Below, one piece after another: positions 32,068 through 55,543 of a DNA stretch of 64,000 bases. The position numbers and the translations under genes are program-made. This DNA comes from Mycobacterium sp. DL592. GTDB taxonomy: Bacteria > Actinomycetota > Actinomycetes > Mycobacteriales > Mycobacteriaceae. The notes beneath the pieces are model-generated. The model did no database searches, was not told the DNA's origin, and saw only the letters and a program-made list of their open reading frames with translations. The stretch is taken from positions 790,448 to 854,447 of the forward strand of contig NZ_CP050192.1 in the NCBI RefSeq assembly GCF_011694515.1, in the 5' to 3' direction. Position 1 is the stretch's first letter, and every line of letters starts with the position of its first letter.

Positions 32068-32128
32068 TCACTCAGCAATGGGTTCGCCGAATGAGTGGTC
32101 AACAGCTACGTGTACTTGGAGGTACGCC

Positions 32129-32446: not shown

Positions 32447-32576
32447 CCCGAGACACTAGTTAGCTTCCAGCTACCGCCTGTGGAGCTGCTGTGAACGGTT
32501 TACTGCAGCGCTTCGTGGGGCTAATGTCACACCCGGATTGCGCGGGACCGCGTCTTCGTCGGGCCAGGGGTCAAGA

Positions 32577-32906: not shown

Positions 32907-32920
32907 CAATAGGGGGGCCG

Positions 32921-33430: not shown

Positions 33431-33748
33431 GCTGCTCGACACGCTGCTATCGAGGCCAGGGCTACCGCCCAGACTGCACATCAGCTCTGGCGTAGGGCTG
33501 GCAGAAGCCCAGCGGTGGTCCACCCGAAATTGGTGGTCGGTGCGCCTACCGAAACCGACGAACGCGAATTTTGTCACCGTGCGCCAGCTTCGGAGGGCGT
33601 CAACGAGGAGATGGATTTCGCACCGTCCCCCGAGGCGCCGGCTGCCTATGCTGGGCATCGCTTTAGCGATTCGCCGAGCGAAGTACGGCCGCACGTCATG
33701 CTTTACATCGTTTGGCCAGACGAGATAGCTATACCATCTGCCACGCCA
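33431..33748 (+). other. Right end of island with two competing open frames
   Basis: About 320 bases without a convincing gene. One frame (from GTG 33330 or ATG 33351 to 33728) gives a 125-132-residue protein that turns into Arg-rich shadow sequence after about residue 80. The frame of island protein 3 is open again from 33431 to 33766 and reads protein-like from about 33540 (DEREFCHRAPASEGVNEEMD). A frameshifted gene remnant is the simplest reading. Confidence 0.35.
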
Positions 33749-33773
33749 GGGTTCGATTCCTCTTAGCTCCACT
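33749..33773 (+). repeat. Right attachment repeat (displaced tRNA-Ala 3' end)
   Basis: GGGTTCGATTCC-T-CTTAGCTCCACT, the second copy of the 25-bp repeat at 31611-31635. The bases before it (33700-33748) do not form the rest of a tRNA, as expected for an attR scar. Confidence 0.8.
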
Positions 33774-33795
33774 GAAGTTTGTGCAGTTCGCCGCG

Positions 33796-37437: not shown

Positions 37438-37803
37438 CTACTGCCCGGCAATGTCGACCGGCACGGGGACGTCACAGCGGTTGTGGAAGTCCACCGACGG
37501 CTGCCGGATGCCCTGAACTTCCGCTTTCACCTGCGGGTTCGCATCGAGATAGGCCTTGGCCTCGGCCCGCTTCTGGTCCATCGGCAGGTCCTTGAGGCCG
37601 GTGAAGAAGTCGTTGACGTCAGGATGGGTGAACAGATAGCCGGACAACGCGAAGCTGACGCCGGACATGACGCCGGCCAGGTCGGCGGAGGTGCAGTTGG
37701 GCGGCGGATCGGCCGCCGCGGGTCCGGCGGCAGCGAGCAGTACTGCGCCGGCACCGAGCCCGACCGCGACTGTTCGGCCCACCGAGTAGGTGAGAGATGA
37801 CAT
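37438..37803 (-). CDS. Hemophore-related secreted protein (Rv0203/Rv1174c family)
   Basis: 121 residues. Signal peptide about 1-31 ending in AAADP, then a small helical domain with two cysteines (NCTSADLAGVMSGV and NRCDVPV) likely joined by a disulfide. The DLAGVMSGVS...YLFTHPDVNDFFTGL pattern is that of the mycobacterial hemophore-like family, which binds or passes haem outside the cell. Lies next to the ESX-3 locus, itself linked to iron uptake. Start ATG at 37803. Confidence 0.75.
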   Translation of the reverse strand: MSSLTYSVGRTVAVGLGAGAVLLAAAGPAAADPPPNCTSADLAGVMSGVSFALSGYLFTHPDVNDFFTGLKDLPMDQKRAEAKAYLDANPQVKAEVQGIRQPSVDFHNRCDVPVPVDIAGQ

Positions 37804-38100
37804 GGTGCTCCTCCGGCGTGCTGTCGACGCGCGCTACCGTCGCAGGGTATCTGCCGGGTGCTCGGTGATGTGGATGATCGACGCTCCGACCTCTTCTGCT
37901 CGCCGCGATCAATAATTACTGACACCGCGTCAATAGCATCAATATTGTTGTTGCAGTGCGTAATTGACCTTCGCGATGGTCGATCTTCGGCGATCGGCGG
38001 TAGTGCACAGATCTCGACATCTGGATACCTTCTTGCAACTGGAACAAGTGACAATCCCGAGGAGTAAGCGGGCGCGCGTCAGCGTGCCCGCGCATGGCCT
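37804..38100 (+). other. Control region before the ESX-3 operon, with leader hairpin
   Basis: 297 bases between the hemophore-like gene and eccA, AT-rich around 37905-37965. A ribosome-site-like GAGGAG (38059-38064) is followed by a 10-bp hairpin (38068-38077 with 38082-38091, one G-T pair, loop GTCA) and then the ATG at 38101. No 19-bp IdeR box or Zur palindrome was recognised here, although ESX-3 is usually under both. Confidence 0.5.
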
Positions 38101-39936
38101 ATGACTACTGCTGTTGAGATTCTCACGACGGGCCCGACGCTGAAGGTCGATGGTGACCTGGTCAGCCGATTCGCCACGTGCTGCAAGGCATTGGGGCTGT
38201 CGGTGTATGGCAGGCGCCGGCCCGCTGACCTGACCGCGGCCCGTTCGGGTTTCGCGGCGCTGACCCGCATCGCGCAGGACCACAACGATGCCTGGGTGGG
38301 ACTGGCCGCCGCGGGGGAGACGACCCCGCAGGTTCTCCACGCGATCTCCGCCACCGCGCACACCGCCGGGGCCCTGCAGCGTCGCATCGAACTCGACGCC
38401 GGCGCCCTGACGTTCAGCTACGACAGCGGGCTCTACCTGACGTTCCAGGCCAGCCGGCCCGATGACTTTCATCTTGCCTACGCGGGAGATCTGTTGTCCC
38501 GGGGTGCCTTCGCCGAGGCGGCCGAGGTGGTCGCAGACGTCACCGAGCGCAGACCCGACTCGCGGGAAGCCCGATGGGCGGCCGTCGCGGTCAACTACCG
38601 GGCGCAGCGGTGGTCCGATGTGGTCCGGTTGCTCACCCCGATCGTCAACGACACCGAGGCCGACGACCTGTTCCGGCACGCGGTCAGAGTCGCGCTGGGA
38701 ACCGCGCTGGCTCGCCTCGGGATGTTCGCACCCGCCCTGTCCTACCTGGAAGATCCGTCCGGACCGGTCGAGGTCGCGGCGGTGGACGGCGCGCTCGCCA
38801 AGGGGTTGACGCTGCGTGCCCAGGGCGAGGAGGACGAGGCGCAGGACACCCTGCAGGACCTCTACGCTGCGAACCCGGAGAACGCCGAGGTCGAGCACGC
38901 GCTGCTGGATCCCACCTACGGGATCAGCGTCACCACGGCCGCCCGCATCGAGGCCCGCAGCGACCCGTGGGACCCGGCCACCGAACCCGGTGAGGACGAT
39001 TTCATCGACCCGGGGGCACACGAGCGAAAAGCCACCCTGCTGACCGAAGCCGAGCGCCAGCTCGGCGAGTTCATCGGTCTGGAGGAGGTCAAGGATCAGG
39101 TTTCGCGGCTGAAGAGTTCGGTCGCCATGGCGCTGCTGCGCCAGGAGCGTGGTCTGACGGTTGCGCAGCGTTCGCACCATCTGGTCTTCGCCGGCCCGCC
39201 GGGAACCGGTAAGACCACCATCGCCCGGGTGGTCGCCAAGATCTATTGCGGGCTGGGCCTGTTGAAGAAGGAGAACGTCAAGGAGGTGCACCGGGCTGAT
39301 CTGATCGGTCAGCACATCGGTGAGACCGAGGCCAAGACCAACGCCATCATCGACAGCGCGCTGGACGGGGTGCTGTTCCTCGACGAGGCCTACGCATTGG
39401 TGGCCACTGGGGCCAAGAACGACTTCGGTCTGGTGGCCATCGACACCCTGCTGGCGCGGATGGAGAACGACCGCGACCGCCTGGTGGTGATCGTCGCCGG
39501 CTACCGCGCCGACCTCGACCGGTTCCTGGACACCAACGAGGGCCTGCGTTCCCGGTTCACCCGCAGCATCGACTTCCCGTCCTACACCGCCGGTGAACTC
39601 GTCGAGATCGCCAGCGCGATGGCCCGCCAACGCGACAGCGTCTTCGACGCAGCGGCATTGGACGATCTCCGTTCGCTGTTCACGCATTTGGCGTCGTCGA
39701 GCACCCCCGATGCGGCCGGCGTCGAGCGCCGCAGCCTCGACGTCGCCGGCAACGGCCGCTTCGTGCGCAACGTCGTCGAACGCTCCGAGGAGGAACGCGA
39801 GTTCCGCCTCGATCACTCCGAGCATTCCGGTTCCAGCGCCTTCACCGACGAGGATTTGATGACGATCACCGCCCCGGATGTGGTCAATGCCGTGCGGCCG
39901 TTGCTGCGCGGACTGGGCTTGGCGGAGCCGGCATGA
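38101..39936 (+). CDS. eccA3: ESX-3 type VII secretion AAA+ ATPase EccA
   Basis: 611 residues. An N-terminal TPR-like half (about 1-300) opens with GDLVSRFATCCKALGLSVY. The C-terminal AAA+ CbbX-like ATPase has Walker A GPPGTGKTT (from residue 365), Walker B VLFLDEAYAL and the SRFTRSIDFPSY arginine finger. It is cytosolic and helps release PE-PPE/Esx substrates from EspG. The sequence follows M. tuberculosis EccA3 closely, which sets the locus type as ESX-3. The ATG has no close ribosome site; see the leader hairpin. The stop overlaps eccB by 4 bases (ATGA). Confidence 0.95.
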   Translation: MTTAVEILTTGPTLKVDGDLVSRFATCCKALGLSVYGRRRPADLTAARSGFAALTRIAQDHNDAWVGLAAAGETTPQVLHAISATAHTAGALQRRIELDAGALTFSYDSGLYLTFQASRPDDFHLAYAGDLLSRGAFAEAAEVVADVTERRPDSREARWAAVAVNYRAQRWSDVVRLLTPIVNDTEADDLFRHAVRVALGTALARLGMFAPALSYLEDPSGPVEVAAVDGALAKGLTLRAQGEEDEAQDTLQDLYAANPENAEVEHALLDPTYGISVTTAARIEARSDPWDPATEPGEDDFIDPGAHERKATLLTEAERQLGEFIGLEEVKDQVSRLKSSVAMALLRQERGLTVAQRSHHLVFAGPPGTGKTTIARVVAKIYCGLGLLKKENVKEVHRADLIGQHIGETEAKTNAIIDSALDGVLFLDEAYALVATGAKNDFGLVAIDTLLARMENDRDRLVVIVAGYRADLDRFLDTNEGLRSRFTRSIDFPSYTAGELVEIASAMARQRDSVFDAAALDDLRSLFTHLASSSTPDAAGVERRSLDVAGNGRFVRNVVERSEEEREFRLDHSEHSGSSAFTDEDLMTITAPDVVNAVRPLLRGLGLAEPA

Positions 39937-41453
39937 CGGGCCCGGCCCGCGACCCGCAGGACCGCCAATCCTTCACGGCGCGTACACCTGTGAACGCCAA
40001 CCCCGACCGGGTGAGCTACCGGCGGGGGTTCGTCACCCGCCACCAGGTCACCGGCTGGCGATTCGTGTTGCGGCGCATCGCATCCGGCGTCGCCCTCAAC
40101 GACACCCGGATGCTCGTCGACCCGCTGCGCGGCCAGTCCAGGGCAGTGCTGACCGGTGTCCTGCTTGCGGTGACCGGCTTGATCGGCTGCTTCGTGTTCT
40201 CGGTCATCAGGCCCGGCGGCGAGGTGGGCAACAACGACGTGCTCGCCGACCGTGACAGCGCAGCGCTGTACGTGCGCGTCAACGACGTCCTGCACCCGGT
40301 GCTCAACCTGACCTCGGCGCGGCTCGCGGTCGGCAAGCCGGTCAACCCGGCCGACGTGCGAAGCACCGCCCTGGACACGCTGTCGCGTGGACCGGCGATC
40401 GGCATACCCGGTGCCCCGGAACGGATCGTGCAAGACGGGACGCGCGACGCGAACTGGACGGTGTGCGAGGGACTCCCACCGGCCGCGGCAGGGGTGACCG
40501 TCATCGCCGGCCCGCTCGTCGAGAACGGCGAGCACGCGAAACCACTGCAGTCGGGCTCCGCCATCCTCGCCGACAACGGCAGCGGAAAGTGGTTGCTGTG
40601 GAACGGCCGCCGCAGCGCGATCGACCTCAACGACCGGTCGGTGACCTCCGCACTGGGACTGGGCAACGAACTCCCGGCCGCCCGGCCGATCTCGCCGGCA
40701 CTGTTCAACGCCATCCCGGAAAGCGCTCCGCTGAGCCAGCCCGTCATCGCCGACGCCGGCCAGCCACCCGCCTACGCACTTCCCGCCGGGATACCGGTCG
40801 GCAGCGTGGTCAGTGCATACGGCCCGGACAATGCGCCGGTGTTCTACGCCGTCCTCGCCGACGGTGTGCAGGAGATCTCGCCGGTGCTCGCCGCGGTGCT
40901 GCGCAACGGCAACTCGTACGGGTTCGCACAGCCGCCGCAGCTCACCGCCGACGACATCGCCCGCGCACCGGTGTCACGGGCGCTGGACGCCGCGGCCTTC
41001 CCGGACCGCGAGGTGAAGATCGTCGACACCTCGGCGTCCCCGGTCACCTGCCTGCACTGGGCCAAGCCGGACGGCGCCAGCGTGAGCTCGCAGACCCTGC
41101 TGGCCGGCGGGACCCTGCCGGTCGGCCAGAATGCACCCGGTGTCGACCTCGTGCGATCCGGCGGGGCGCAGCGTGCGGTGCTCAAACCCGGGGTCGGGTA
41201 CTTCGTCCAGACCGTCGGTCAACAGCCGGCATCGCCGAGCGCCGGCTCACTGTTCTGGGTCTCCGACACCGGTGTGCGTTTCGGTATTGACGGGGGGACG
41301 GCTAAGGACGGCACCAAGAAAACCGTTGCCGCACTGGGCCTGACCCAGCCGCCGCTGCCGGTCCCGTGGTCAGTGCTCGCCCTGCTCACCCCCGGTCCTG
41401 CGTTGTCGCAGGCCGATGCCCTTGCCGCCTACACCGGGACGGAGAACCGATGA
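39933..41453 (+). CDS. eccB3: ESX-3 membrane component EccB
   Basis: 506 residues. A short cytosolic N-terminus ([26 protein letters not shown]) and a single membrane helix (about 70-92) precede a large periplasmic part made of EccB repeat domains around a core, with two Cys (CEGLP and TCLHWAK) that pair in known EccB proteins. It is part of the EccBCDE membrane pore. Coupled by ATGA overlaps to both eccA and eccC. Confidence 0.95.
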
Positions 41454-44400
41454 GCAGGCTCATCTTCGAGGCGCGCAGGCGCCTGCCCACGCCGCAGGTG
41501 CGCAAGGGTGCGATCGTCATCGAGCCGCCGCCGGAGCTGCCCAGGGTGGTGCCGCCGTCGTTGCTGCGCCGCGTGCTGCCGTACCTGATCGTCGCGCTGA
41601 TCATCGGGATGATCGTGGCGATGGTCGCCACCGGCATGAAGATCATCTCGGCGCAGACCCTGTTCTTCCCGTTCGTCCTGCTGCTCGCGGCCACGGCGCT
41701 GTATCGCGGCTCCGACAACAAGATTCGCACCGAAGAGGTCGACGCCGAACGCGCCGACTACTTGCGCTACCTCTCGGTGGTCCGCGACAACGTCCGCGCC
41801 CAGGCCGCCGATCAGCGCGCGGCCGCCCAGTGGTCCCATCCCGAACCCGAAACGCTCGCGGCGATTCCGGGATCGCGCCGCCAGTGGGAGCGCGACCCGC
41901 ATGACGGCGACTTCCTCGTGGTGCGGACCGGCCGCAGCGACGTCGAATTGCAGACCCCGCTGCGGGTGAAGGATTCCGTCGACGAGATCGATCTGGAGCC
42001 GGTGTCGCACAGCGCGCTTCGCGGGCTGCTCGACACCCAGCGAACCGTCCCGGACGTGCCGGTCGGCGTCGACCTGACCAAGGTCTCGAAGCTGACCGTG
42101 GTCGGAGACGCCGATGAGGTCCGCGCTGCGGTCCGGTCCTGGATCGCGCAGGCGGTCACCTGGCATGACCCCGGCCTGCTCGGCATCGCACTGGCCAGTC
42201 GGGATCTGGACACCGCCGACTGGTCGTGGCTGAAATGGCTGCCGCACAGCGACATCCCGGGAGAGGTCGACGGTGTCGGACCGGCCCGGTATCTCAGTGC
42301 CGACGTCGACAGCCTGACCGCCAAGGTCGGACCGGCACTGGCCAGCAGGCCGGTGTTCGACGGCTCGGAGTCCGGCCTTCGCCACCTGGTCGTCGTCATC
42401 GACGAACCCGGGTACGACCTCGCCGGTTCGGTGCTGTCGGCGGGGTTCGCCGGTGTCACCGTCATCCACCTCGACGACGCCGCTCCCAGTCGCGACCAAT
42501 ACCCGGATCCCGAACGGCCGATCCTGCGGGTGGGGGAGGGCCGCATCGACCGCTGGGGCACCGACGGGTGGCAGACCTATGTCGAGCACGCCGACAGCCT
42601 GCCGGCGCACGAGGCGAATCAGCTGGCGCGCAGGCTGTCTCGCTGGGACTCCAACCCCACCCATGCCGGGCTTCGCTCGGCGGGCACCACCGGGGCCGCG
42701 TTCACTACTTTGCTCGGTATCGACGACGCCTCGGCTCTCGACGTTCCGACGCTGTGGGCGCCCCGCCGTCGCGACGACGAACTGCGCGTCCCCATCGGCG
42801 TGACCGCCAACGGTGAGCCGTTGTTCTTCGACCTCAAGGACGAGGCCGAAGGTGGGATGGGTCCGCACGGCCTGATGATCGGTATGACCGGCTCCGGCAA
42901 ATCGCAGACGCTCATGTCAATCCTGCTGTCGCTGCTGACCACCCATTCGGCCGAGCGCCTCATCGTGATCTACGCCGACTTCAAGGGGGAGGCGGGCGCC
43001 GATGTGTTCCGCAACTTCCCGCAGGTCGTCGCGGTGATCTCGAACCTGGCCGAAAAGCGTTCACTGGCAGATCGATTCGCCGACACACTGCGCGGCGAAG
43101 TGGCGCGCCGCGAAGCGCTCCTGCGTGAAGCGGGCCGGCGGATCCAGGGCAGCGCATTCAGCTCGGTCGCCGAGTACGAGGCCGCCCGCCAGACGGCCGA
43201 AGGCTACGACCTTCCGCCGCTGCCGACGCTGTTCATCGTCGCCGACGAGTTCACCCTGATGCTCGCCGAGTACCCCGAGTTCGCCGAACTCTTCGACTAC
43301 GTGGCACGCAAGGGCCGCTCGTTCCGCATCCACATCCTGTTCGCGTCGCAGACGCTGGACGTCGGCAGGATCAAGGACATCGACAAGAACACCTCGTACC
43401 GCATCGGTCTCAAGGTCGCCAGCGCGGCGGTCTCCCGCCAGGTCATCGGAGTCGAGGACGCCTACCACATCGAGTCGGGCAGGGAACACAAGGGCGTCGG
43501 CTTCCTGGTGCCCAATCCGGGTGCGGATCCGATCAAGTTCCGCAGCACCTACGTCGACGGGATCTACGAACCGCCCACGGCGGCAAGGACCAAGGTGCTG
43601 CCCGCCGCCCCGGAAGCCCGCCTGTTCACCGCCTCGCACGTCGACGTCGACCCGGACGTGATCGTGCTGCCTGTCGAGGAGGCGCTACCGGTGGCGCCCC
43701 GAAAGCTCATCACCACCATCGGTGAGCAACTCGCCGCGGTCGGGCCGTCCGCCCCCACATTGTGGCTGCCCCCGCTGGAGGAAACCATTCCCCTTGGTGC
43801 GGTGCTGAATTCGGCGGGTGTGCCCGCCGGGCAATGGCGCTGGCCGCTCGGTGAGATCGACCGCCCGTTCGAGATGCGGCGCGATCCGCTGATCTTCGAC
43901 GCCGGTTCAGCCGCGGGCAACCTGGTCATCCATGGCGGGCCCAAGTCGGGCAAGTCGACGGCCCTGCAGACGTTCATCCTGTCGGCCGCCGCCCTGCATA
44001 CACCCCGTGAGGTGAGCTTCTACTGCCTGGACTACGGCGGCGGCAGGCTGCGCGACGTCGAGCGCCTGGCTCATGTCGGCAGTGTGGCCTCGCCGCTGGA
44101 GGCCGAGCGCATCCGCAGGACCTTCGGTGAGCTCGAGGCGCTGCTGGAAGCCCGGCAGCGGTCGGGCTCCGTCGACGGCCGCTGGGACGACGGCTACGGC
44201 CACGTGTTCCTGGTGATCGACAACCTCTACGGGTTCAGCCGGGACAACACTGACCAGTTCAACACGCGTAACCCGTTGCTGGCCAAGGTCACCGAGCTCG
44301 CGAACAGCGGGCTGGCCTATGGCATCCACGTCGTCGTGACCACGCCGAACTGGTTGGAGGTGCCGCTGGCGATGCGCGACGGACTGGGCCTGCGCCTGGA

Positions 44401-45409
44401 GCTGCGCCTGACCGATCCTCGCGACAGCAACGTGCGCGTCCCCGGCCAGCTCCGGCGTCCGGCCGACGGTGTTCCGCACGACCAGCCCGGCCGCGGTCTG
44501 ACGACCGGGGCCGAGCACTTCCTGTTCGCCGCGCCGCAGCCGGAATACGTCGAGGCGATCAACGCGCGGTATCCGGGACTGAGTGCACCGCCGGTGCGCC
44601 TGCTTCCCGCCGACCTCGCGCCTGCCACGGTCGCACCGCTTGCACGCGGAGTGGAACGCATCGTGATCGGGCAGCGTGAACAGGATCTGGGCCCCGTCGT
44701 CCTGGACTTCGCCGCCAACCCGCTGGTCTCGGTGTTCGGTGACGGCAAGACGGGCAAAACCACCTTCCTGCGGCACGTCATCCGCACGGTGCGCGACAAC
44801 TCCAGCGCCGACCGGGTGGCGTTCACGGTGCTGGACCGGCGGTTGCACCTCGTGGCGGAACCGCTGTTCGAAGACAACGAATACACCGCCAATGTCGACC
44901 GGATCACGCCCGCGATCCTCGGACTGTCGGCCCTGCTGGAAGGCCGCCGGCCGCCGGCGGGGGCGTCGGCCAAGGAGCTCACCGGCTGGACCTACACCGG
45001 GCACACGCACTACCTGATCATCGACGACATCGACCAGATCCCCGACGTGCCCGCTGTGACCGGTCCCTACGCCGGTCAGCGCCCGTGGACGCCGCTGCTG
45101 GGATTGCTGGCCCAGGCAGGCGATCTCGGTCTAAGGGTGATCGTCACCGCGCGGGCCACCGGCTCGGCCCACGCTCTGATGACCAACCCGCTGCTGCGCC
45201 GTCTCAACGACCTGCAGGCGACCACCCTGCTGTTGTCGGGCAACCCCGCCGACGGCGCCAAGATCCGCGGTCACCGGTTCGCCCGGCTGCCCGCGGGCCG
45301 GGCTCTGCTGCTCGACGACGATTCCGCCGGCGACACCGGGACCTACGTCCAGCTCGTCAACCCCCTTGTCGCCGAGCATGTCTCGGGTGGCGAGGACCAC
45401 CGACCGTGA
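41450..45409 (+). CDS. eccC3: ESX-3 motor ATPase EccC
   Basis: 1319 residues, full length and unsplit. Two N-terminal membrane helices (about 42-62, 68-86), a DUF domain, then three FtsK/SpoIIIE ATPase domains with Walker A motifs near residues 478 ([10 protein letters not shown]), 829 (GGPKSGKST) and 1097 (GDGKTGKTT). The first domain keeps a good Walker B (LFIVADEF). It recognises Esx substrates through domain 3 and drives export. The ATG at 41450 overlaps the eccB stop. After it the locus departs from the usual ESX-3 order, since no PE/PPE genes follow. Confidence 0.96.
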
Positions 45410-45513
45410 TCACCGCAGACAAGGAGGCACACCTGATCTGCGCCACCGCCATCGACCGACGAACCGTCCTTCACCAGTCCCCGATCGGAGATACCCGTCA
45501 TGAGTCTGCTTGA
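45406..45513 (+). CDS. Coupled 35-codon mini-ORF between eccC and esxG
   Basis: GTG at 45406 shares GTGA with the eccC stop, and the frame ends at 45513, 14 bases inside esxG. It contains one Cys and no recognisable domain. It occupies the place where PE5 and PPE4 lie in standard ESX-3 loci. It may only keep ribosomes moving toward esxG, or be a scar of the lost PE/PPE pair; whether the peptide matters is unknown. Confidence 0.3.
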
Positions 45514-45793
45514 TGCCCACATCCCCCAGCTGATCGCCTCGGAATCGGCGTTCGGCGCCAAGACCGCGCTGCTGCGGTCCACCATCGCCCAAGCCGAGCA
45601 GGAAGCCGTTGCCGCACAGGCGTTCCACATCGGCGAGGCCTCGGCCGCGTTCCAGGTCTCCCACGCCCGGTTCGTCGAAGCCGCCGCCAAGATCAACACC
45701 CTGCTCGACCTGGCCCAGGCCAACCTCGGTGAGGCGGGCGGCACCTATGTGGCCGCCGACTCGGCCGCCGCCGCAACTTACGGAGGTTTCTGA
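45500..45793 (+). CDS. esxG: WXG100-family protein EsxG
   Basis: 97 residues. A helical hairpin very close to M. tuberculosis Esx[19 protein letters not shown] at the start, the turn [10 protein letters not shown] (Ser-Ala-Gly replacing WXG, normal for EsxG), and the export signal YxxxD in YVAADS near the C-terminus. It pairs 1:1 with EsxH, and the dimer is exported by ESX-3 and takes part in iron/zinc acquisition. The stop shares a base with esxH (TGATG). Confidence 0.96.
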
Positions 45794-46080
45794 TGTCCCA
45801 GATCGCTTACAACTACCCGGCGATGCTCGGGCACGCCGCCGATATGGCCGGCTATGCGGGCACGCTGCAGGCGATCGGCGGCGACATCGCTGCCGAGCAG
45901 GCGGCGCTGCGTGGCGCCTGGCAGGGTGACACCGGGTTGACCTACCAGGCCTGGCAGGTCCAGTGGAATCAGGCGCTGGACGAGCTGGTGACGGCCTACC
46001 GGGCGATGGCCTCGACGCATGAGTCCAACACCCTGTCGATGCAGGCCCGCGACCAGGCCGAAGGCGCCAAGTGGGGCTGA
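45793..46080 (+). CDS. esxH: WXG100-family protein EsxH
   Basis: 95 residues, close to TB10.4. [20 protein letters not shown] opens the first helix, the WXG turn is AWQGDTG, and the end [13 protein letters not shown] is conserved. Partner of EsxG. GGAGG ribosome site about 8 bases upstream and 1-base overlap with esxG. The three-residue spacing and helices look intact. Confidence 0.97.
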
Positions 46081-46084
46081 GCAG

Positions 46085-46870
46085 GTGAGTTCGCCCAACG
46101 CGGCTGAACTCTCGGTCGAGGCAGCCTGGTTCATCGCCGAGGCGGTCGGTGCGGGGACGTTCCCCTGGGTGCTCGGGGTGACTACGCCCCCGCACCCGGT
46201 CCGTCCCGACGACGTGCCACTGGAGCCTGCGGTGGCCGACTGGATACGGGTGGTGTGCCACCCCGAGCAGTGGTACGAGATGCGCTGTGTGTCAACCCGA
46301 AACGGTAGCGGTGACCTGCTGCGGGGGATCATCGCCCGACGCGGTGAGCACGTGGTGGTGGCGCTGCGCAACGCGCAGCTGATCACCTTCACCGAGATGG
46401 CCATCCACGATGCGGCCGCATTGGTTCCGGTGCTGACCGTCGGATTGGAGAACCGCCCACCGGCGTCGTTTCCCGACTTCCGGATTCCGGCCCGGGTCGG
46501 CGCTCGGGCGGACGCACAACTGCGCGCCGGTGCCGAACTGTCAACGGTGATGGACTATCTCGGGATCCCGCGCGCCGCCCGGGAGATGGTGAGCGCGGTG
46601 TTCGCGGGGCCGCGCAGCTACGTCGAGATCGTCTCGGGCCAGAACCGCGACGGCAGCACCACCACCAGTCCGGTCGGAGTCGCCGTCGTCGACTGCGAGT
46701 ACGGCCGCGTCCTCGTCACGCCCGACAAGGCAGACGACGGCGAATGGATCTCGACGTTCACCCCGGGATCCCCCGCGGCGATCGCCCGGGCCGTCGACAC
46801 GCTGGCCGCCACCCTGCCCGAAGGGCGCTGGTTCTCCGGCGCCGGATTGTTCCGAGAACTCGTTCACTGA
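46085..46870 (+). CDS. espG3: PE-PPE chaperone EspG
   Basis: 261 residues. Cytosolic chaperone that binds the tip of the PPE partner and keeps PE-PPE pairs soluble for ESX-3. Opens with LSVEAAWFIAEAVGAGTFPWVL and ends with LAATLPEGRWFSGAGLFREL, both typical of EspG3. The GTG at 46085 is chosen because the conserved region starts just after it; an upstream frame extension runs into esxH. Its presence shows the system still expects PE-PPE clients, which in this window lie at 52781-54729. Confidence 0.92.
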   Translation: MSSPNAAELSVEAAWFIAEAVGAGTFPWVLGVTTPPHPVRPDDVPLEPAVADWIRVVCHPEQWYEMRCVSTRNGSGDLLRGIIARRGEHVVVALRNAQLITFTEMAIHDAAALVPVLTVGLENRPPASFPDFRIPARVGARADAQLRAGAELSTVMDYLGIPRAAREMVSAVFAGPRSYVEIVSGQNRDGSTTTSPVGVAVVDCEYGRVLVTPDKADDGEWISTFTPGSPAAIARAVDTLAATLPEGRWFSGAGLFRELVH

Positions 46871-46886
46871 AAAGAGATAGCCAATC

Positions 46887-48293
46887 ATGACTGAGACCCT
46901 GGTGACACCGGTACTGCCGGTGGTCCGCGTTGCCGTGCTTGCCGGCCATCGGATCACCGAGATCTCGCTGCCCGCGGAGGTCCCGCTGCGCGAGATCCTG
47001 CCTGCGGTCGAACGGCTGGCCCACACTGGCGACGACGTCGAACAGGCCGAGACGGCCGCACCGGCACGGTTGACCCTGGCCCCGATCGGCGGGGCGCCGT
47101 TCAGCCTTGACGCCAGCCTTGACACGGTGGGCGTGGTGGACGGGGATCTACTTGCGTTGCAGCCCATTCCGGCGGGTCCCGCTGCGCCGGGCATCGTCGA
47201 AGACATCGCCGACGCTGCGGTGATCTTCTCGGAGGCGCGTAAGCAGCCCTGGGGACCTGATCACATCCGGCGAGCGGCCTCGGCAGGCACGGTCGCCCTC
47301 GTGCTGGCGCTCACCGGCCTGGCGGTGGGGTACCGCCTCGCATCGGGCACGCCGGTGGGTGGATATGTCCTCGGCGCGCTGGCCGCCGTCGTCGTCGTGG
47401 CGAGCCTGCTGCTGACCGCGCGGGCCCGTCGCGCATCGCTGCTGCTGTCGGGTGTTGCTCTGGCCCCCATCACGGCTGCGCTTGCGCTGGTCGTACCCGG
47501 GCCGTTCGGTTGGTCCCACGTTCTACTCGCCGCCGCCGGGTTCGCCGCCTGGTCGTTGCTGAACACGATCATCGGCGAGGACGGGCTGGCCTTCTTCACC
47601 GCCACCACCGTGGTCGGGGCCGGCCTGCTGGTGGCCTCGGCCGCCGCCGTGCTGTGGCATCTGCCGCTGCTCACCCTGGGCGCCATCGTGATCGCGGTGG
47701 CGCTGCTGGTGACCATCCAAGCCGCCCCGCTGTCGGCGCTGTGGGCCCGCTTCCCGCTTCCGGTGATCCCGGCTCCCGGCGACCCGGCGCCGACCGCGCC
47801 GCCGCTGCAGGTGCTCAAGGACCTTCCCCGCCGGGTCCGGATCAGCGAGGCCCATCAGACCGGTTTCATCGCCGGGGCTGTGCTGCTCTCGGTGATCGGG
47901 TCGTTCGGCGTCGTCGGGCTCGGCCAGCCCGGGCCGTGGGCGTGGTATCTGGTCCTGGCCACCAGTGCCGCGGCGGTGCTGCGGGCCCGGATCTGGGACA
48001 CCGCCGCCGACAAGGCGTGGCTGCTGGCCCAGCCGGCACTGCTGACCCTCTCGCTGCTGGCTGTCTTCGCCGTGCAGGGCCGCTATGTCGGAGCACTGGT
48101 GACCGTGGCGGTGCTCGCGGCGCTGGTCGCCGCCTGGTGGGTGGTGGCCGCCAACCCCGGTCTCGCCGATCCCGACAGCTACTCGTTGCCCGTCCGCCGT
48201 GGGCTGGGCTTCGTCGCAGCCGGCTTCGATGCCTCGCTGATCCCGGTGATCGTCTACGTCGTCGGCCTCTTCGACTGGGTCCTCAATCGATGA
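46887..48293 (+). CDS. eccD3: ESX-3 membrane channel component EccD
   Basis: 468 residues. N-terminal ubiquitin-like domain (about 10-95: RVAVLAGHRITEISLPAEVPLREIL split over two strands) followed by eleven predicted membrane helices from about residue 130 to the end. Forms the membrane vestibule with EccC and EccB. The ribosome site AAAGAGA lies upstream of the ATG at 46887. The stop overlaps mycP (ATGA). Confidence 0.95.
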   Translation: MTETLVTPVLPVVRVAVLAGHRITEISLPAEVPLREILPAVERLAHTGDDVEQAETAAPARLTLAPIGGAPFSLDASLDTVGVVDGDLLALQPIPAGPAAPGIVEDIADAAVIFSEARKQPWGPDHIRRAASAGTVALVLALTGLAVGYRLASGTPVGGYVLGALAAVVVVASLLLTARARRASLLLSGVALAPITAALALVVPGPFGWSHVLLAAAGFAAWSLLNTIIGEDGLAFFTATTVVGAGLLVASAAAVLWHLPLLTLGAIVIAVALLVTIQAAPLSALWARFPLPVIPAPGDPAPTAPPLQVLKDLPRRVRISEAHQTGFIAGAVLLSVIGSFGVVGLGQPGPWAWYLVLATSAAAVLRARIWDTAADKAWLLAQPALLTLSLLAVFAVQGRYVGALVTVAVLAALVAAWWVVAANPGLADPDSYSLPVRRGLGFVAAGFDASLIPVIVYVVGLFDWVLNR

Positions 48294-49633
48294 CAGCAGT
48301 TCTCAACCGTTGGGCGGCAGCGCTTCTCGCTGCCGCACTGCCGGTACTCTGCGCCCCGCCCGCGTGGGGAGTGGACCCGCCTCAGGTCGACGCCTCCGCG
48401 GTGCCGCCGCCAGGCACCACCGGATCGGCGATACCTCTGGTGCAGCGCCTCGAGTGCGAGACGACCGGTCTGATCCAGGGCACCGACGTGGCGACCCCGG
48501 CACCCGCGCAGCGCGCGCTGGACCTGCAGAGTGCCTGGCAGTTCTCCCGCGGTGAGGGCCAGACCGTCGCCGTCATCGACACCGGTGTACAGCCCGGCCC
48601 GCGGCTGCCCGATCTGTCCGGCGGCGGCGACTACATCGGCGCCGGCGACGGCCTGGCCGATTGCGACGGGCACGGCACCGCGGTCGCCGGCCTGATCGCC
48701 GGCCGGCCGGGCCCCGACGGGTTCTCCGGAGTGGCGCCCGCCGCACGGCTGGTGTCCATTCGGCAGACATCGGACAAGTTCGGGCCACGCATCCCCGGTG
48801 ACGATCCGACGGCCGCGCGTGCGGCGGCTGAAATCTCCAGTCTGGCAAGGGCTGTGGTGCGGGCGGCCGACCTCGGCGCGCGGGTCATCAACATCTCGTC
48901 GGTGATCTGCCTGCCCGCAGGCAGCGGCCCCGACCAGTCCCTGCTCGGTGCGGCGCTGCGTTACGCGGCCGTCGACAAGGACGTCGTGATCGTCGCGGCC
49001 GCCGGCAATTCGGGGCCCGTCGGGCTGACGGCGGGCACTGCATGCCAGTCCAACCAGGGCGACTGGGCTGGAGTCACCACGGTATCGGTGCCTTCGTGGT
49101 GGCAGCCCTACGTGTTGTCGGTCGGCTCGGTCGCCGCCGACGGTCAGCCGTCGACGTTCACGATGTCCGGCCCATGGCTGGGGCTGGCCGCTCCCGGCGA
49201 GAACGTGCTCTCACTGAGCAACAGCGGCGACGGCCTGGCCAACGGTGCGCCCACCGATCGGGGAAAGCTCACCCCGCTCAGTGGCACCAGTTTCTCGGCC
49301 GCCTATGTCTCCGGCGTGGCTGCGCTGGTGCGCAGCCGGTTCCCGCAACTGAGCGCGCCGCAGGTCGTCGAACGGCTGACCGCGACCGCCCATCGGGGTG
49401 CGCGTTCACCCTCGACGCTGGTGGGCGCCGGGACGGTTGACCCGGTGGCCGCCCTCACCTGGCAGCTGCCCGCCCCGCAGGTCGCGGCCCGCGAACAGAT
49501 TGCCGCACCGGCGCCACAGCCGGTTGAGAACCACACTCCGCGCACCATCGCGCTGGCCGGGACGGCGGTTCTGGCTGCCGCGGTTGCCGTGGTCGCGTTC
49601 ACCGCGAATCGACGAAAGGACACCACCCGATGA
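48290..49633 (+). CDS. mycP3: Mycosin, subtilisin-like ESX protease
   Basis: 447 residues. Signal peptide about 1-27, subtilase domain with Asp97 (VIDTG), His128 (DGHGTAVAG) and Ser334 (GTSFSA), and a C-terminal membrane helix (about 416-437) anchoring it outside the membrane. All triad residues are intact. It stabilises the ESX membrane complex and cleaves some substrates. Starts and ends in ATGA overlaps with eccD and eccE. Confidence 0.95.
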   Translation: MTAVLNRWAAALLAAALPVLCAPPAWGVDPPQVDASAVPPPGTTGSAIPLVQRLECETTGLIQGTDVATPAPAQRALDLQSAWQFSRGEGQTVAVIDTGVQPGPRLPDLSGGGDYIGAGDGLADCDGHGTAVAGLIAGRPGPDGFSGVAPAARLVSIRQTSDKFGPRIPGDDPTAARAAAEISSLARAVVRAADLGARVINISSVICLPAGSGPDQSLLGAALRYAAVDKDVVIVAAAGNSGPVGLTAGTACQSNQGDWAGVTTVSVPSWWQPYVLSVGSVAADGQPSTFTMSGPWLGLAAPGENVLSLSNSGDGLANGAPTDRGKLTPLSGTSFSAAYVSGVAALVRSRFPQLSAPQVVERLTATAHRGARSPSTLVGAGTVDPVAALTWQLPAPQVAAREQIAAPAPQPVENHTPRTIALAGTAVLAAAVAVVAFTANRRKDTTR

Positions 49634-50595
49634 GCGCGTTGCGGTCTCGAATCGCCCTGCCCGGTCCGGGCCGGATCACCCTGGTGGCGCTGGCCGTGAT
49701 CCCCGCCGTGCTGGCTTATCCGTGGCGCACCGCCCATGACCGCTGGGTGCTCGGCGTCGGCGTGGTCCTCGCCGTGGTTCTGCTGGCCTGGTGGCGGGGC
49801 CGGCACCTCACCTCGGTGGTCGCGGGCCGAATCGCCCTGCTGGTTCGGGGACGCCGGCCATCGACGCATCAACCCGCGCCGCTCACCGACGCCCGGACCA
49901 CGGTCGCGCTGCGACTGGCTCCCGGGGCGCACGACGAGATCCCGCTGTCGCTGATCGCCGGTTACCTCGACCGCTACGGAGTGCGCGCCGATGCGGTTCG
50001 GCTCACCAGCCGCGACACCGCATCCGGGCGGACCACCTGGGTGACGTTAACCCTGTCGGCGACAGCCAATCTGGTTGCACTGCAGGCACGCTCAGCCGAT
50101 CTGCCGCTGCGTGAGACGGCGGAGACCGTCCTGCGCCGGCTCGCCGACCACCTTCGTGAACTGGGTTGGTCGGTGAACACCACCGACCTGGACATCCCGG
50201 ACCTGCTGGGGCCGGTTCCCCAGGAACGCTGGCGTTCCGTGCAGGACGGTACGCAGGGATACCTGACCGCCTATGGCGTCACCGTCGGCGAGGATCTGGG
50301 CAGCACGCTGGCCGAGATCCGGGCTTACCCGTCGTCCGAGGTTTGGACGGCGGTGCAGATCACCGGGACCGTGCAGCGGCCGAAGCTGGCCGCGGCGGCG
50401 GCAATCCGCAGTGAGGACGGCTCACCCGCCGACCTGCCGACGCTGGTGGTCCAGGATGGCCGCCAACTGGCTGCCGTGACGTCACTGCATCCGCTGTCGC
50501 TGGAAGGTGTTGTGGCAGAACAGGTCCAGTTGAGCCAGGTGCCCGACGTGGGATGGCCGACGTCAGCGGTCGGGGAGCGGGCCGGTCTGGGATGA
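49630..50595 (+). CDS. eccE3: ESX-3 membrane component EccE
   Basis: 321 residues. Two N-terminal membrane helices (about 14-30, 36-55), then a soluble domain with SLIAGYLDRYGVRADAVRLTSR. Outermost part of the EccBCDE complex. In standard ESX-3 loci this is the last machine gene. Here its stop is overlapped (ATGA at 50592) by an arylsulfatase gene, so the operon continues. Confidence 0.93.
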   Translation: MSALRSRIALPGPGRITLVALAVIPAVLAYPWRTAHDRWVLGVGVVLAVVLLAWWRGRHLTSVVAGRIALLVRGRRPSTHQPAPLTDARTTVALRLAPGAHDEIPLSLIAGYLDRYGVRADAVRLTSRDTASGRTTWVTLTLSATANLVALQARSADLPLRETAETVLRRLADHLRELGWSVNTTDLDIPDLLGPVPQERWRSVQDGTQGYLTAYGVTVGEDLGSTLAEIRAYPSSEVWTAVQITGTVQRPKLAAAAAIRSEDGSPADLPTLVVQDGRQLAAVTSLHPLSLEGVVAEQVQLSQVPDVGWPTSAVGERAGLG

Positions 50596-52784
50596 GGGCC
50601 CCCAGCGGCGCTCCCAACGTCCTGATGATCGTTCTCGATGATCTCGGTTTCGGTCAGCTGGGGTGCTTCGGATCCGACATCGCTACGCCCAACATCGATA
50701 AGCTGGCATCAGACGGACTTCGGTACAACAGGTTTCACGTCACCGCGCTGTGCTCGCCGACCCGTGCGGCGTTGTTGACCGGGCGCAATCACCATGCGGT
50801 CGGGATGGGGATGCTCACCGACCTCCCCACCGACCTGCCGGGCTACTCGGGCCGAATTCCGCCGTCGACTCCCACCCTGCCGAGAGTGTTGCGCGACGCG
50901 GGCTGGAGCACCATGGCGTTCGGTAAGTGGCATCTGGCACCCCGTTACGAACTCGGCGACGCCGGGCCTTTCGAAAGATGGCCGCTGGGGCTGGGTTTCG
51001 AACGGTACTACGGCTTCCTCGGCGGCGACACCAATCAGTGGGCGCCGCGGCTGGTCCGTGACAATTCGTCGATTGTTGCGCCCAAGACGCCGGCCCAGGG
51101 TTATCACCTGACCGAGGATCTCGCCGACCAGGCGATCCGTATGGTGGTCAATCAGCAGGAGTCCGCTCCTGGCAAGCCGTTCTTCACCTACTTCGCGCCC
51201 GGGGCTATGCACGCGCCGCATCACGTGCCCGCATCCTGGGCCGACGCTTATGCCGGCCGCTTCGACCAGGGCTGGGATCGCTGGCGCGAGGAGGTGTTCG
51301 CCCGCCAGGTCGCCACCGGTGTGGTGCCCCGCACCACGACATTGACGGCTCGGCCGTCGTGGGTTCCGGCCTGGGCAGACCTCAGCAGCGATGAGCGGCG
51401 GGTGTACGCGCGCATGCTCGAAGTTTTCGCCGGTTTCCTCTCCCATACCGACGCCCAGATCGGCAGGCTGCTCGACGCTCTGCGGCACCTCGGTGTCTAC
51501 GACGACACGCTGATCCTGTTGCTCTCCGACAACGGAGCCAGTGCGGAAGGCGGGGTCTCCGGCACGGTCAACGAACACCTGTTCGCTCATGGCATCCGGG
51601 GTGACGTCGCGACCAGCCTGGCTCACCTCGCCGACTGGGGCGGCCCGAACACCTACCCCCACTACGCATGGGGATGGGCATGGGCGGGTAACACCCCGTT
51701 CCGGTTGTGGAAGCGCTACTCGTGGCTGGGCGGGACCCGCGTGCCGCTGATCGCACACTGGCCCCGTGTCATCGGCGCGCAGGGTGGCCGGGTCCGCGGC
51801 CAGTTCACGCATGCGATCGACGTGATGCCAACGGTGTTGGAGGCGTGTGGAATCGAGCAGCCGGTCGGGCTCGACGGGGCGAGCGCGTTGGCGACGTTCA
51901 CTGATCCGGACGCGCCCGACCCCCGCTCGACGCAGTACTTCGAGATGCTGGGCTCGCGATCGATCGTCAGTCAAGGCTGGAAGGCGACCACCGACCACGT
52001 CTCCGGCGGCGTCGTCGACGAAGAGGAACTTCTCACCGGCAGCCGGGACTTCGACTCCGACCGGTGGTCACTGTTCCGGCTCGACGAGGACTTCTCCGAG
52101 GCGCACGACGTCGCCGACGCGCACCCGGATATCGTGGAATCCCTTGCCCGGCAGTGGTTGTCCGAAGCTGAACGTAACAACGTTCTGCCACTGGCCGACT
52201 CGCTGATCGCACGGTTCGGGCGCCTGGTGCCGCCGGACTATCCGCCTCGCTCGCACACGGTGATCTATCCGGCCGGTGGTCCGGTGAGTGACGAGGTGCT
52301 TCCCTCGCTCGTGGCAGGCGCCGAGGTGAGCGCCGACGTCGAGGTCGCTGACAGCGGCAGCGACGGCGTGCTGTTCGCTTTAGGGGACCGCATCGCGGGC
52401 TTGGTCGCGTACGTCACCGGTGGCCGGCTGACGGTGACAGTGGTCATCCTGGGCGACACCGTCACCGTCGGCACCCCAGCCGTTGGCGGTGGCCGCCATC
52501 GGCTCGGGTGCCGACTGGCGCCGCAATCCGGCGGCGGAACCCGGGTCGAGGCGATCATCGACGGACAGGTGGCGGCGACCGGCTTGAGCTCCAATCACCT
52601 ACCGTTCGTCTGGCAGATCGGTGGCACTCAGCTGCGACCCGGCTATGACGAGGGGATCGGCGTCTGCGACGGCTACCAGCCGCCTTTCGCATGGACGGGA
52701 ACGCTGTACCAGGTCGATGTCGTGACGGGCCAACGCACCCTCGGCGATCCGGCAGCGGCGCTGGTCAGCCTCAAGACCGACTAG
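50592..52784 (+). CDS. Arylsulfatase, translationally coupled to the ESX-3 operon
   Basis: 730 residues. Alkaline-phosphatase-superfamily sulfatase. The metal site starts with VLDDLGFG, the catalytic cysteine (to be changed to formylglycine) is Cys54 in the C-S-P-T-R motif of [19 protein letters not shown] supplies the Lys/His pair, and LLSDNGAS supplies late metal ligands. A C-terminal beta-sandwich extension (about 560-730) is typical of large actinobacterial arylsulfatases. No signal peptide, so it is probably cytosolic. ATG at 50592 overlaps the eccE stop, linking it to the secretion operon, an unusual partnership. The end overlaps the convergent PPE gene by 4 bases. Substrate unknown. 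Confidence 0.92.
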
Positions 52785-54421
52785 CGTCGGTCCTCGTCAT
52801 CGCGGTCCGCGGGCTGGGCCGGCGGCCCCTGCGGCGTATCGGCATTCCAGGTCTGCGGCACCATCGGGACCGTGGGGCCGCTGCCGAACGAGCCGCCCGC
52901 CAGGGTGGTGACACCGGCGGCCTCGGCCGCGGTCTTGGGCAGGGTCCCGCTGAGCCCGATCGGTCCGGCGCCGCGTCCGGACGCCGCAGTGGTGGGGGCC
53001 GGCCCGCTGTCCTGCTGTGGCGCTTCCCATTCCGGATCAACCTCGACGTCCATGTACGCGTCGGCGTGGCCGGTCTGCGGAGTGGTCTGGCGCCGGCGCG
53101 CGCGACGCTTGCGCCGTGCCGCTTCGGCAGCCACGGCCGCGGCGGCCGCTGCCTCCGAGGCCCGCGCGGATGCGCTCGCGGTGGTCCTGGTCTTTGTACC
53201 CGAATCGAATCCGATGGCGGGCGGCGGCCCGACGATGGCGTAGGGCGGGAAGAAGCCGGCCCCGGTGGCCGGTGGGGGAGGCGGCGGTGCGGGACTGGCT
53301 GCCGACCCGGCGGCCGACGCCGCCGGTGCGGGTGCCGCCGCGGATCCGGCACCGGCCACGGTGGGGGCGATCCCCGCGGCCGGCAACTGGTTACCCGCGG
53401 CGGGAACCGGCGCCGGTGCGGGCGATGGCGCGTCGGCGGGAATGTCGGTGGGCATGGCCGCGAGCCCGCCGAGCACCCCTCCGACGATGGCGCCGGCGGC
53501 TGCCGCGGGGACCACCGACAGCAGTGTTGATGCCAGTAACGGTGATACGCCTAGCGCGATGGCCAGGACTGGGTGCAACGAAAGGTAAGCCGCAATCGTG
53601 GCCGGCGAGGCGCTTCCGATCGCCTGGAAGATGGCAAGCGGGTTCGTCAGCAGCGTTTGGAACAGGTTCTGGAATTCCTGCGCGTAGAGGAAGAGCCTGG
53701 TGATCCAGTAGATCGGACCGCTCCCGAGGGGGATGTCGGCGTAGGGGACTCCGTTGATCGTGCCGGCGACAGGATCCCAGGTCCACCCGAACAGTGAGAA
53801 GACCTGCTGCAAGAACTTTACCGGGATGGCAAAGATCTGCTGCACGATGCCCTGCAGCGTGCTCAATGGATCAGCGGTCTCGGCCGCCAGAATCTGCGGT
53901 GCCTGGGTGGTTTGGGGTGTCGCCGCCGCGGCGGCACTCGCCACTACCTGATAGGTCGACATCGTGGTGGCGGCCTGCACCCACATCCGCACGTAGTCGG
54001 CTTCATTGAGCGTGATCGGAATCGTGTTGATACCGAGGAAATTCGTGGCCAGCAAGACGCCGTGAGTCGCATGGTTGGCAGCGATCTCGGCGAGTGTGGG
54101 CATCGCCGCCAGCGCCGCCGTGTAGGCCGCCGCGGCGGTCTCGTGCGCCGCGGCGGCGGCCGCGGAGTCGACGCTCGTCTGCACCAGCCAGGCCAGGTAC
54201 GGCACGTTGGCCGCCAGGAACGCCTCGGCGCTGGGGCCCTCCCAGGCACCGGCCTGAACCGACGCCAGTAGCTGGGTGAGTTCTGCTGCCGCCGAATCGT
54301 ATTCAGCGCTCAGCGAGGTCCACGCCGCGGCGGCGGCCAGCAGCGGTCCTGGACCGGCGCCGCTGCTCAGCAGCGCGGAATGAATCTCCGGTGGCGAGGC
54401 CATCCAGACCGGGGCGGTCAT
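52781..54421 (-). CDS. PPE family protein, PPE4-like ESX-3 client
   Basis: 546 residues. N-terminal PPE domain (about 1-175) with [18 protein letters not shown], the WXG-like turn [11 protein letters not shown] and [18 protein letters not shown] hydrophobic middle (about 200-330) and an Ala/Pro-rich region follow, then the conserved C-terminal [16 protein letters not shown] seen in PPE4. It should pair with the PE protein encoded 2 bases upstream, be carried by EspG and exported by ESX-3. It sits on the opposite strand at the end of the locus rather than between eccC and esxG, so it needs its own promoter. Confidence 0.93.
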
Positions 54422-54423
54422 CC

Positions 54424-54729
54424 TCAGGCAGGGAACACGTACGACGATGCGATGGCGGCGTCACTGGTCGCATAGCTGACGCCGGTCTCAGCCACTCCGG
54501 CTCCGGCGCGGGTCAACTCGACGACGCCCTGCAACGTGATCGCCGCGTGCTGGGTGCCTCGCGCGCTGAAATCGGTTGCGGTCTGCAGCGACACGGGGTC
54601 GATCGCCGGCGGTGTCACTGCGGAGATCACCGGGGCGGTCTGCGCGTGCGCGGCAGCCAGTCGTGCCGCAAGCGCTTCCACTCCCGCCGAGGCTGCCGCC
54701 AGTCCTTCGGGAACGACACGTAACACCAT
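54424..54729 (-). CDS. PE family protein, PE5-like partner of the PPE protein
   Basis: 101 residues. The opening [20 protein letters not shown] carries the PE motif in the PE5 style (VVPEGL). A second helix with [14 protein letters not shown] follows, and the end has YATSDAA (YxxxD export signal) in SYATSD. Forms a helical dimer with PPE. ATG at 54729. Transcribed with PPE (2-base gap), away from the ESX-3 machine genes. Confidence 0.93.
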
Positions 54730-54961
54730 GCCCGACACTCCTCTTCTACTCGCGTACAACAAATTCAAGCCCATCGCGGAGCGAGGTCAACTCGAAAGAG
54801 TCGGTGCACGTGCGTCGCCCGCTCGGCCCGTGCCGGCCACGCTGGATCGCGGTCCACAAACCCGCTGGTGCAGTGGGTTTTCGGGGAGCTGCGCGAGGAA
54901 GCCCGCGGCGGGCGCCGGGCCCGGCCGATTGGAATCATCGTGGTTTTTGAGTGCGCGCCGC

Positions 54962-55543
54962 TTACCGGCTTCCGCCCACCTCGGCGGGCAGCGGCGGCGG
55001 CAACGGCGTGGTCGACGTCGGCGTGGTGGAAGTGGGCGCGGTGGAAGTGGGCGTGGTGGAAGTGGGCGTGGCCGACGTCGTCGGCGTGGCGGTCCCGGAC
55101 GTGCTCGGCGCAGAACTGGTCGTCGTCGACTTCGGCGCCTGCGGCCCGTGGAAGTCCACCCACGACTCGCTGCGGATCGTCTTGCCGTTGGAGTTCACCG
55201 TCAGTGACTTCGAGTCGACGAGATAGGTGATGCCGTCGTTCTCCGCGTCATAGGCGCCGCTGCCGTAGGCCGACGCCGACAGGATCAGCTTGGCGCCGTC
55301 GCGCACCCGCACCCCGCGGTACTCGTACTGCCCGCCGGAGTCCTTGCAGATCGCCACCCGGGAGGTCTCGGTGCTACCGAAAAGGACGGCGGTCTCGGAC
55401 GCGGCACACCGTGCCGTGGAGTCGACGTAACCCTGGGAGTCGTAGGACGGCGCAGCGGCAGCCGAGGGCAACCCGATGACGAACATGCACGACACGGCCG
55501 CGACCGCCGCGACTCGGGCGGTGCGGACCCACACAGATGACAT
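54962..55543 (-). CDS. Secreted protein with Thr/Pro repeat tail, unknown
   Basis: 193 residues from ATG 55543 (GGAG just upstream; an ATG at 55555 is also in frame). Signal peptide about 1-31. A folded domain (about 32-130) has two Cys (TARCAAS and AICKDSG) and Tyr/Gly-rich strands. The tail (about 140-193) is Thr/Ser/Pro repeats (TSTTPTSTAP type), a mucin-like linker likely to carry O-mannose. The DNA of the tail is a GTGGAAGTGGGC-type tandem repeat at about 55024-55075. No enzymatic motif recognised. Confidence 0.65.
   Translation of the reverse strand: MSSVWVRTARVAAVAAVSCMFVIGLPSAAAAPSYDSQGYVDSTARCAASETAVLFGSTETSRVAICKDSGGQYEYRGVRVRDGAKLILSASAYGSGAYDAENDGITYLVDSKSLTVNSNGKTIRSESWVDFHGPQAPKSTTTSSAPSTSGTATPTTSATPTSTTPTSTAPTSTTPTSTTPLPPPLPAEVGGSR

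Follow-up and report, generated by a model that had tools for sequence, protein, structure and literature searches.

Why should a sulfatase gene begin inside the last gene of a type VII secretion operon? The question is raised by a stretch of 64,000 nucleotides, here called the window (G000:C1:790448-854447), from the one-contig, 5.10-Mb genome of Mycobacterium sp. DL592, in which eccE (49630-50595) and a sulfatase gene (50592-52784), both on the forward strand, share the four bases ATGA at 50592-50595. The genes upstream resemble those of ESX-3, a secretion system known for iron and zinc. Here we report that an accessory ESX-3-type operon has the sulfatase as its final cistron and lies on a 17.1-kb block together with a convergent pair of PPE and PE genes. 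As to what the enzyme does there, we lean, on sequence evidence, towards a cytosolic ester sulfatase that would be co-expressed with an accessory ESX-3 no longer under metal control and would desulfate small esters.

The contact between eccE and the sulfatase is of a kind found throughout the operon. Four-base overlaps occur at five junctions (eccA-eccB, eccB-eccC, eccD-mycP, mycP-eccE and eccE-sulfatase), and since all five are alike, the last of them is the operon's normal style rather than an accident; a chance or mis-called overlap was ruled out on the same ground. The preliminary description of this DNA had placed the sulfatase at exactly these coordinates with its start over the eccE stop, and both statements are correct; its word "fused" is apt for the overlapping frames, but the two genes do not form one protein. 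An alternative start, an in-frame ATG, lies at 50553, but the M. simulans homologue reads MRAPVNAPNVV at the position matching 50592. Scanning 49400-53000 for sigma-70-like promoters returned no site, a result that is little informative with a chance expectation of only 0.1, and an Rfam scan of the window returned tRNA only.

Judged by its sequence and predicted fold, the protein is an intact type I sulfatase of the Pseudomonas aeruginosa AtsA (PAS) type. It scores 213.9 bits against PF00884 (cut-off 25), its nearest PDB sequences are the P. aeruginosa arylsulfatase (1hdh, E 2.6e-68) and an engineered form of it (4cxk, E 1.6e-68), and its nearest fold is again that of the P. aeruginosa arylsulfatase (4cys, E 2.3e-39, TM 0.83 by target; 1hdh, E 2.2e-38). 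Across an alignment of 25 sequences there is no variation at C54, S55, P56, R58, D16, D17, K112, H114, H207, D313, N314 or K374, and almost none at T57. These correspond to the catalytic and metal residues of the P. aeruginosa arylsulfatase, and the earlier observation of a full C-S-P-T-R motif (C54-S-P-T-R58) with its metal residues is borne out. The AlphaFold2 model (mean pLDDT 79.8; weak at residues 21-24, 317-334 and 722-730) has a beta-rich added C-terminal part at residues 577-712, and because its first strand begins already at residue 9, the protein is read as lacking a signal peptide, as the preliminary description had held. Such a lack is usual for PAS-type enzymes, and formylglycine formation takes place in the cytosol. 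The genome has 10 matches to PF00884 and three over cut-off to PF03781, the family of the formylglycine-generating enzyme (FGE), so activation of the sulfatase in trans would be possible. No NCBIfam arylsulfatase equivalog reaches its cut-off (the best, NF010322, gives 114 bits against 481), and a domain profile search of the protein found no WXG100, PE or PPE domain.

The operon is not the core ESX-3 of its genome. EccE has a single other match there, 43% identical, which lies at 4.69 Mb in an ESX-3 cluster of standard order; the cluster in the window is a second, accessory ESX-3-type operon, and a sulfatase on the core ESX-3 was ruled out, the core locus lying elsewhere. With eccA-E, mycP, espG, an esx pair and PE/PPE genes it has the full ESX-3-type gene set, and its EsxG and EsxH resemble the canonical copies of the same genome (Table 1). 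The tie to the ESX-3 machine that the preliminary description proposed thus stands in so far as the sulfatase is stitched in like the other cistrons, but the cluster is not the canonical one. Among the best 120 of its 503 relatives, the EccE of the window reaches at most 58% identity. Trees of EccD, MycP and EccE, built without an ESX-1, -2, -4 or -5 outgroup, group the canonical DL592 copy with those of M. litorale (G009), G172_b and G184_b (support 100). The place of the second copy is unstable: in one tree it groups with G172_a/G184_a and others, in the other, where several nodes have support of only 33-84, beside the group of the canonical DL592 copy.

The limits of the block come from a collinear relative (G098). 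In blastn against the corresponding site, similarity ends at 37835 and returns at 54966, the relative having about 72 bp instead, and the flanking genes are collinear and adjacent there, with proteins 63-99% identical. Between these points lie the ESX operon, the sulfatase, the PPE gene and the PE gene. The relative gave no eccE match at E <= 1e-20 and no sulfatase of the window type (best match 44% identical). We read the block as an insertion in the DL592 genome, the rival being a deletion in G098. Immediately to its left, a gene for an MHB-domain (haem-binding) protein (37438-37803, reverse strand) is also present in G098 and hence lies outside the block. Nearer the start of the window, a tRNA-Ala gene (31561-31634), a repeat of the tRNA 3' end near 33.77 kb and a low GC content between the two (0.574 at 32-34 kb) resemble a small integrated element (31561-33795). 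This island (31.6-33.8 kb) was ruled out as the carrier of the ESX block, which lies outside it. A survey of ESX evolution from 2016 names ESX-3-related plasmid clusters, ESX-P3 (PMC4791881). Origin from such a plasmid was ruled out, EccE matches being found in 3 of 72,556 plasmid records with 30% identity at best; the plasmid relatives of the sulfatase (73 records) are all less than 60% identical.

Does the accessory operon still answer to metals? Sites for the repressors IdeR and Zur were scored by mismatches, within 500 bp upstream of eccA, to the consensus of each. IdeR acts as a repressor of ESX-3, joined in M. tuberculosis by Zur (PMC3796483). All 20 canonical loci tested have an IdeR-like site (at most 5 mismatches) there, and 10 of them a Zur-like site (at most 2 mismatches); G168 and G012, which by EccE rank among the nearest to the window, belong to the 20. 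For the operon in the window, the best candidates in these 500 bp have 8 mismatches for IdeR and 6 for Zur; 300 shuffles of the stretch reached 5 IdeR mismatches once. Control by IdeR or Zur was ruled out here, no site being found upstream. All seven accessory clusters examined (the window, G172_a, G184_a, G143_b and the second clusters of G022, G073 and G069) agree: upstream of eccA or of the PE/PPE genes, their best IdeR-like sites have 7-9 mismatches and their Zur-like sites at least 5; shorter stretches before eccA were scanned in G143_b and G172_a. Loss of the boxes is thus a trait common to all accessory clusters tested, the sulfatase-free lineage included.

How widely the sulfatase and such operons keep company can be seen from its orthologues, defined as matches at E <= 1e-215. 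Of 396 genomes of the genus, 22 carry this type, at 24 loci that were all inspected, and ESX genes adjoin it in eight of the 22: the DL592 genome and G022, G069, G073, G078, G130, G174 and G371. In the seven others the sulfatase is convergent to the eccE of a second ESX-3 cluster, 84-1176 bp away, and the order in G022, G069 and G073 is PE, PPE genes, esx pair, eccA, eccB, eccC, eccD, mycP, eccE. The same convergent arrangement, here called the Mycolicibacter type, occurs in Mycolicibacter arupensis, heraklionensis (2), nonchromogenicus and icosiumassiliensis (5 of 62 loci examined). On a 7.5-kb draft contig of Mycobacterium sp. UM_WGJ (L058, 716-7487), an SBF-family symporter gene and the sulfatase are intact and esx genes are present, with eccA residues 13-247 only and no eccB-eccE, the result of deletion or of draft assembly. 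The preliminary description had asked whether the eccE-sulfatase junction is conserved. The ATGA contact is not, having been seen in no second genome searched, but the association with accessory ESX-3 clusters does recur, convergently, in the seven genomes just listed. A conserved ATGA junction was rejected, the Mycolicibacter orthologues being convergent and the one other co-directional case, in G143, having a 68-bp gap and another sulfatase type. The sulfatase of the window stands alone in its 90%-identity cluster and reaches at most 69% identity among the best 120 of 7,632 relatives; single segments of partial or broken copies reach 74-79%. In the sulfatase tree it pairs with database protein P0010, not with the Mycolicibacter-linked group. 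Descent from one inherited ESX-sulfatase unit was rejected as well, because in the first of the two EccD, MycP and EccE trees the window cluster lies outside a support-100 group that includes the Mycolicibacter type and G143_b.

In G143, a genome of 5.23 Mb, a second ESX-3 cluster of rearranged order has a 782-aa sulfatase 68 bp behind eccE and in the same direction; this enzyme is present twice in that genome, the other copy being 90% identical. This type is matched at E <= 1e-250 in 379 of the 396 genomes, and with the window it makes two different sulfatase types behind eccE of accessory ESX-3 clusters. Taking as complete those accessory clusters that have eccA-E, mycP and an esx pair, we count four lineages: the window, G143_b, the Mycolicibacter type and G018_x/G172_a/G184_a. 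With the espG of the window as query, no match was obtained in G143_b or in clusters of the Mycolicibacter type. In three of the four lineages examined, a sulfatase is found within 2 kb of eccE, which holds for none of the 31 loci that we treat as canonical. Since the genome has about 10 sulfatases among an estimated 4,900 or so genes, chance alone would put one in about 0.2% of neighbouring slots, and the recurrence is unlikely to reflect only chance; the lineage count is small, was made after the fact and may represent only two independent events. G143_b and the Mycolicibacter type may also be one lineage (support 76), which would reduce the count to two of three lineages. Six partial clusters (G023_b, G029_a, G057_b, G064_b, G219_b and G222_b), containing PE/PPE, esx genes and eccE or pieces of these, stand outside the count; no sulfatase was found near five of them, and tblastn found no window-type sulfatase near G029_a. 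Four mini-clusters (L178, L183, L185 and L219, in G023, G064, G222 and G029) consist of PE/PPE or esx genes with an eccE paralogue as the sole ecc gene of the stretch. In the canonical ESX-3 of G143 and G022 (L213, L214), the latter with an extra esx pair, a PPE gene lies upstream of eccA, an order that resembles the rearranged second clusters and may show how these arose.

The 31 canonical loci are a non-random choice: 212 of 248 genomes had a match to eccE, and the loci were selected from these for the rank of that match and for the completeness of the contig. G039 supplies two of them (L180 and L181, the latter cut by a contig end), and L186-L195 and several others, which lie outside the trees, are called canonical as the only or better eccE match. 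With at least 6.6 kb downstream examined, none has a PAS/AtsA-type sulfatase. Twenty of the 31 do have a shorter, AtsG-like sulfatase, convergent and 2.1-8.1 kb beyond eccE (for L158, which is without eccE, about 2.1 kb was taken from coordinates, as was about 2.3 kb for L174, where an over-long ORF call gave -3). In the one annotated example (L173) eccE is followed by genes for an alpha/beta hydrolase, a methyltransferase, the sulfatase and BluB, in that order. To this AtsG-like type the enzyme of the window is 37% identical over only 108 residues. In M. tuberculosis, Rv0296c lies beside ESX-3. Rv0296c is given the name AtsG in PMC4734655. The 20 loci call for some qualification of the view in the preliminary description that known ESX loci do not include sulfatases. 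A literature search, with subscription journals mostly outside its coverage, brought up no description of an ESX operon with a sulfatase, and the word "sulfatase" is absent from the main text of PMC4791881 and PMC6616192.

Transporter genes accompany several of these sulfatases. A gene for an SBF-family symporter precedes the sulfatase on the same strand in all Mycolicibacter-type ESX-linked loci (7 of 7 genomes of our set), as also in the named Mycolicibacter loci and UM_WGJ. Elsewhere in the DL592 genome, at G000:C1:3587748-3596654, genes for three sulfatases lie close to an FGE gene and to one for an SBF-family symporter. In three Mycolicibacter-type loci (L028, L033 and L059) a gene for a sulfotransferase (PF13469) stands at about 2.6 kb from that of the sulfatase, and in L028, where it occupies 6612-7421 on the reverse strand, yebC lies between the two.

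Table 1. Features of the accessory ESX-3-type block and its genes (positions in the window)
Feature	Position	Strand	Basis
About 17.1-kb block, absent from collinear relative G098	37836..54965		blastn and gene collinearity
eccA	38101..39936	+	TIGR03922, 807 bits
eccB, ATGA overlap with eccA	39933..41453	+	TIGR03919, 520.5 bits
eccC, ATG at 41450, overlap with eccB	41450..45409	+	72-77% identity to EccC of other ESX-3 clusters
EsxG-like WXG100 protein	45500..45793	+	78% identity to canonical copy, same genome; PF06013 at 26.7 bits, slightly below cut-off 27.3
EsxH-like WXG100 protein	45793..46080	+	83% identity to canonical copy, same genome; PF06013
espG, likely start GTG 46085 (ORF opens 46019)	46085..46870	+	PF14011, 157.6 bits
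eccD	46887..48293	+	TIGR03920, 330.6 bits
mycP, ATG at 48290, overlap with eccD	48290..49633	+	47-65% identity to MycP of other ESX-3 clusters
eccE	49630..50595	+	TIGR03923, 171.1 bits (cut-off 108); PF11203
ATGA, sulfatase start over eccE stop	50592..50595	+	sequence
Type I sulfatase, 730 aa, P. aeruginosa AtsA (PAS) type	50592..52784	+	PF00884, PDB matches, invariant residues, model
PPE protein, PPE-PPW group; convergent with sulfatase, stops overlapping by four bases	52781..54421	-	PF00823, PF18878
PE protein	54424..54774	-	PF00934

These observations suggest the following course of events. Translation of the sulfatase would be coupled to that of eccE, and the enzyme would be activated in the cytosol by an FGE encoded elsewhere in the genome. 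Co-expressed with an ESX-3 variant freed from iron and zinc control, it would remove sulfate from small sulfate esters, for sulfur or carbon, and would not itself be ESX cargo, while the passage of such anions through the outer membrane may be aided by the PE/PPE pair, once exported. We infer a functional link between ESX and sulfatase of this form, uptake and then desulfation, with which the SBF genes beside sulfatases (in the Mycolicibacter type and in the cluster at 3.588-3.597 Mb) would fit. A broader generalization, tentative and in our view rather doubtful, is that accessory ESX-3 clusters were freed on more than one occasion from iron and zinc control and re-purposed, with a sulfatase and their own PE/PPE proteins, for the uptake of sulfate esters and their desulfation in the cytosol. 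If true, the recurrence near sulfatases of extra ESX-3 copies without metal boxes would suggest that the role in nutrition extends further than metals, and whether type VII secretion and PE/PPE proteins import particular organic anions into mycobacteria would be directly testable.

Several findings weigh against a co-expressed sulfatase with a part in uptake. The block in the window has no SBF gene, the G018_x/G172_a/G184_a lineage has no sulfatase within 10 kb, and the ATGA junction is confined to DL592 among the genomes searched. The Mycolicibacter sulfatase, being convergent, lies outside the ESX operon there. Fourteen of the 22 genomes with this sulfatase type show no ESX gene in the flanks examined, some of which are short (in L032, L034, L036 and L041 one side covers 0.4 to 5 kb), and the UM_WGJ contig keeps the sulfatase with a mere piece of eccA. 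The last two points, like the opposite orientations, favour a serious rival that we hold to be possible, if not probable: the sulfatase would be a passenger, which joined the block by chance, borrows the operon's transcription and works alone, with no tie to secretion. Nocardia, Rhodococcus, Frankia and Streptomyces, which carry this sulfatase type without matches to the ESX genes of the window, can be read in the same way. What speaks against a passenger is that two sulfatase types lie within 2 kb of eccE in three of the four accessory lineages and in none of the 31 canonical loci, more often than the chance expectation given above; the count is small and was made after the fact.

Two further explanations give the enzyme a role at or beyond the cell envelope. 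It might edit a sulfated lipid or trehalose made by the cell, as a form of envelope chemistry like that of the sulfotransferase-sulfatase pairs near canonical ESX-3, of which the Stf0/AtsG neighbourhood of M. tuberculosis is an instance. The AtsG-like sulfatases near 20 canonical loci and the sulfotransferase in three Mycolicibacter-type loci are consistent with this, but the enzyme of the window is of another type, no sulfotransferase is found among the called genes of its block, and yebC intervenes in L028; we regard lipid editing as quite unlikely. Alternatively, the sulfatase could be cargo of the adjoining ESX machine and act outside the cell, for which its place in the operon is the one argument. 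No evidence for its export by ESX was found in this analysis: it has neither a WXG100, PE or PPE domain nor a signal peptide, its modelled fold is compact with a beta-rich C-terminal part, and formylglycine is made in the cytosol, all of which makes export highly improbable.

The P. aeruginosa AtsA (PAS; 1hdh, 4cys) has the same active-site residues and likewise no signal peptide; the enzyme of the window differs in being only 29-30% identical to it, in having about 190 extra C-terminal residues and in lying in an ESX operon. Within mycobacteria, the 782-aa arylsulfatases of the AtsA/AtsD type (P0241) belong to the same PAS-like family and are 41% identical to it. The AtsG-like sulfatase near canonical ESX-3 is likewise a PF00884 protein near eccE, but it is of about 466 aa, of another type, always convergent and never as close. 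Canonical ESX-3 itself has its PE/PPE genes between eccC and esxG, whereas those of the window (52781-54774, reverse strand) lie behind the sulfatase, and the window cluster is moreover a second copy, without an IdeR- or Zur-like site and with the sulfatase as its last gene. Plasmid ESX-P3 (PMC4791881) is likewise an ESX-3-related cluster outside the standard locus; the cluster in DL592, by contrast, is chromosomal.

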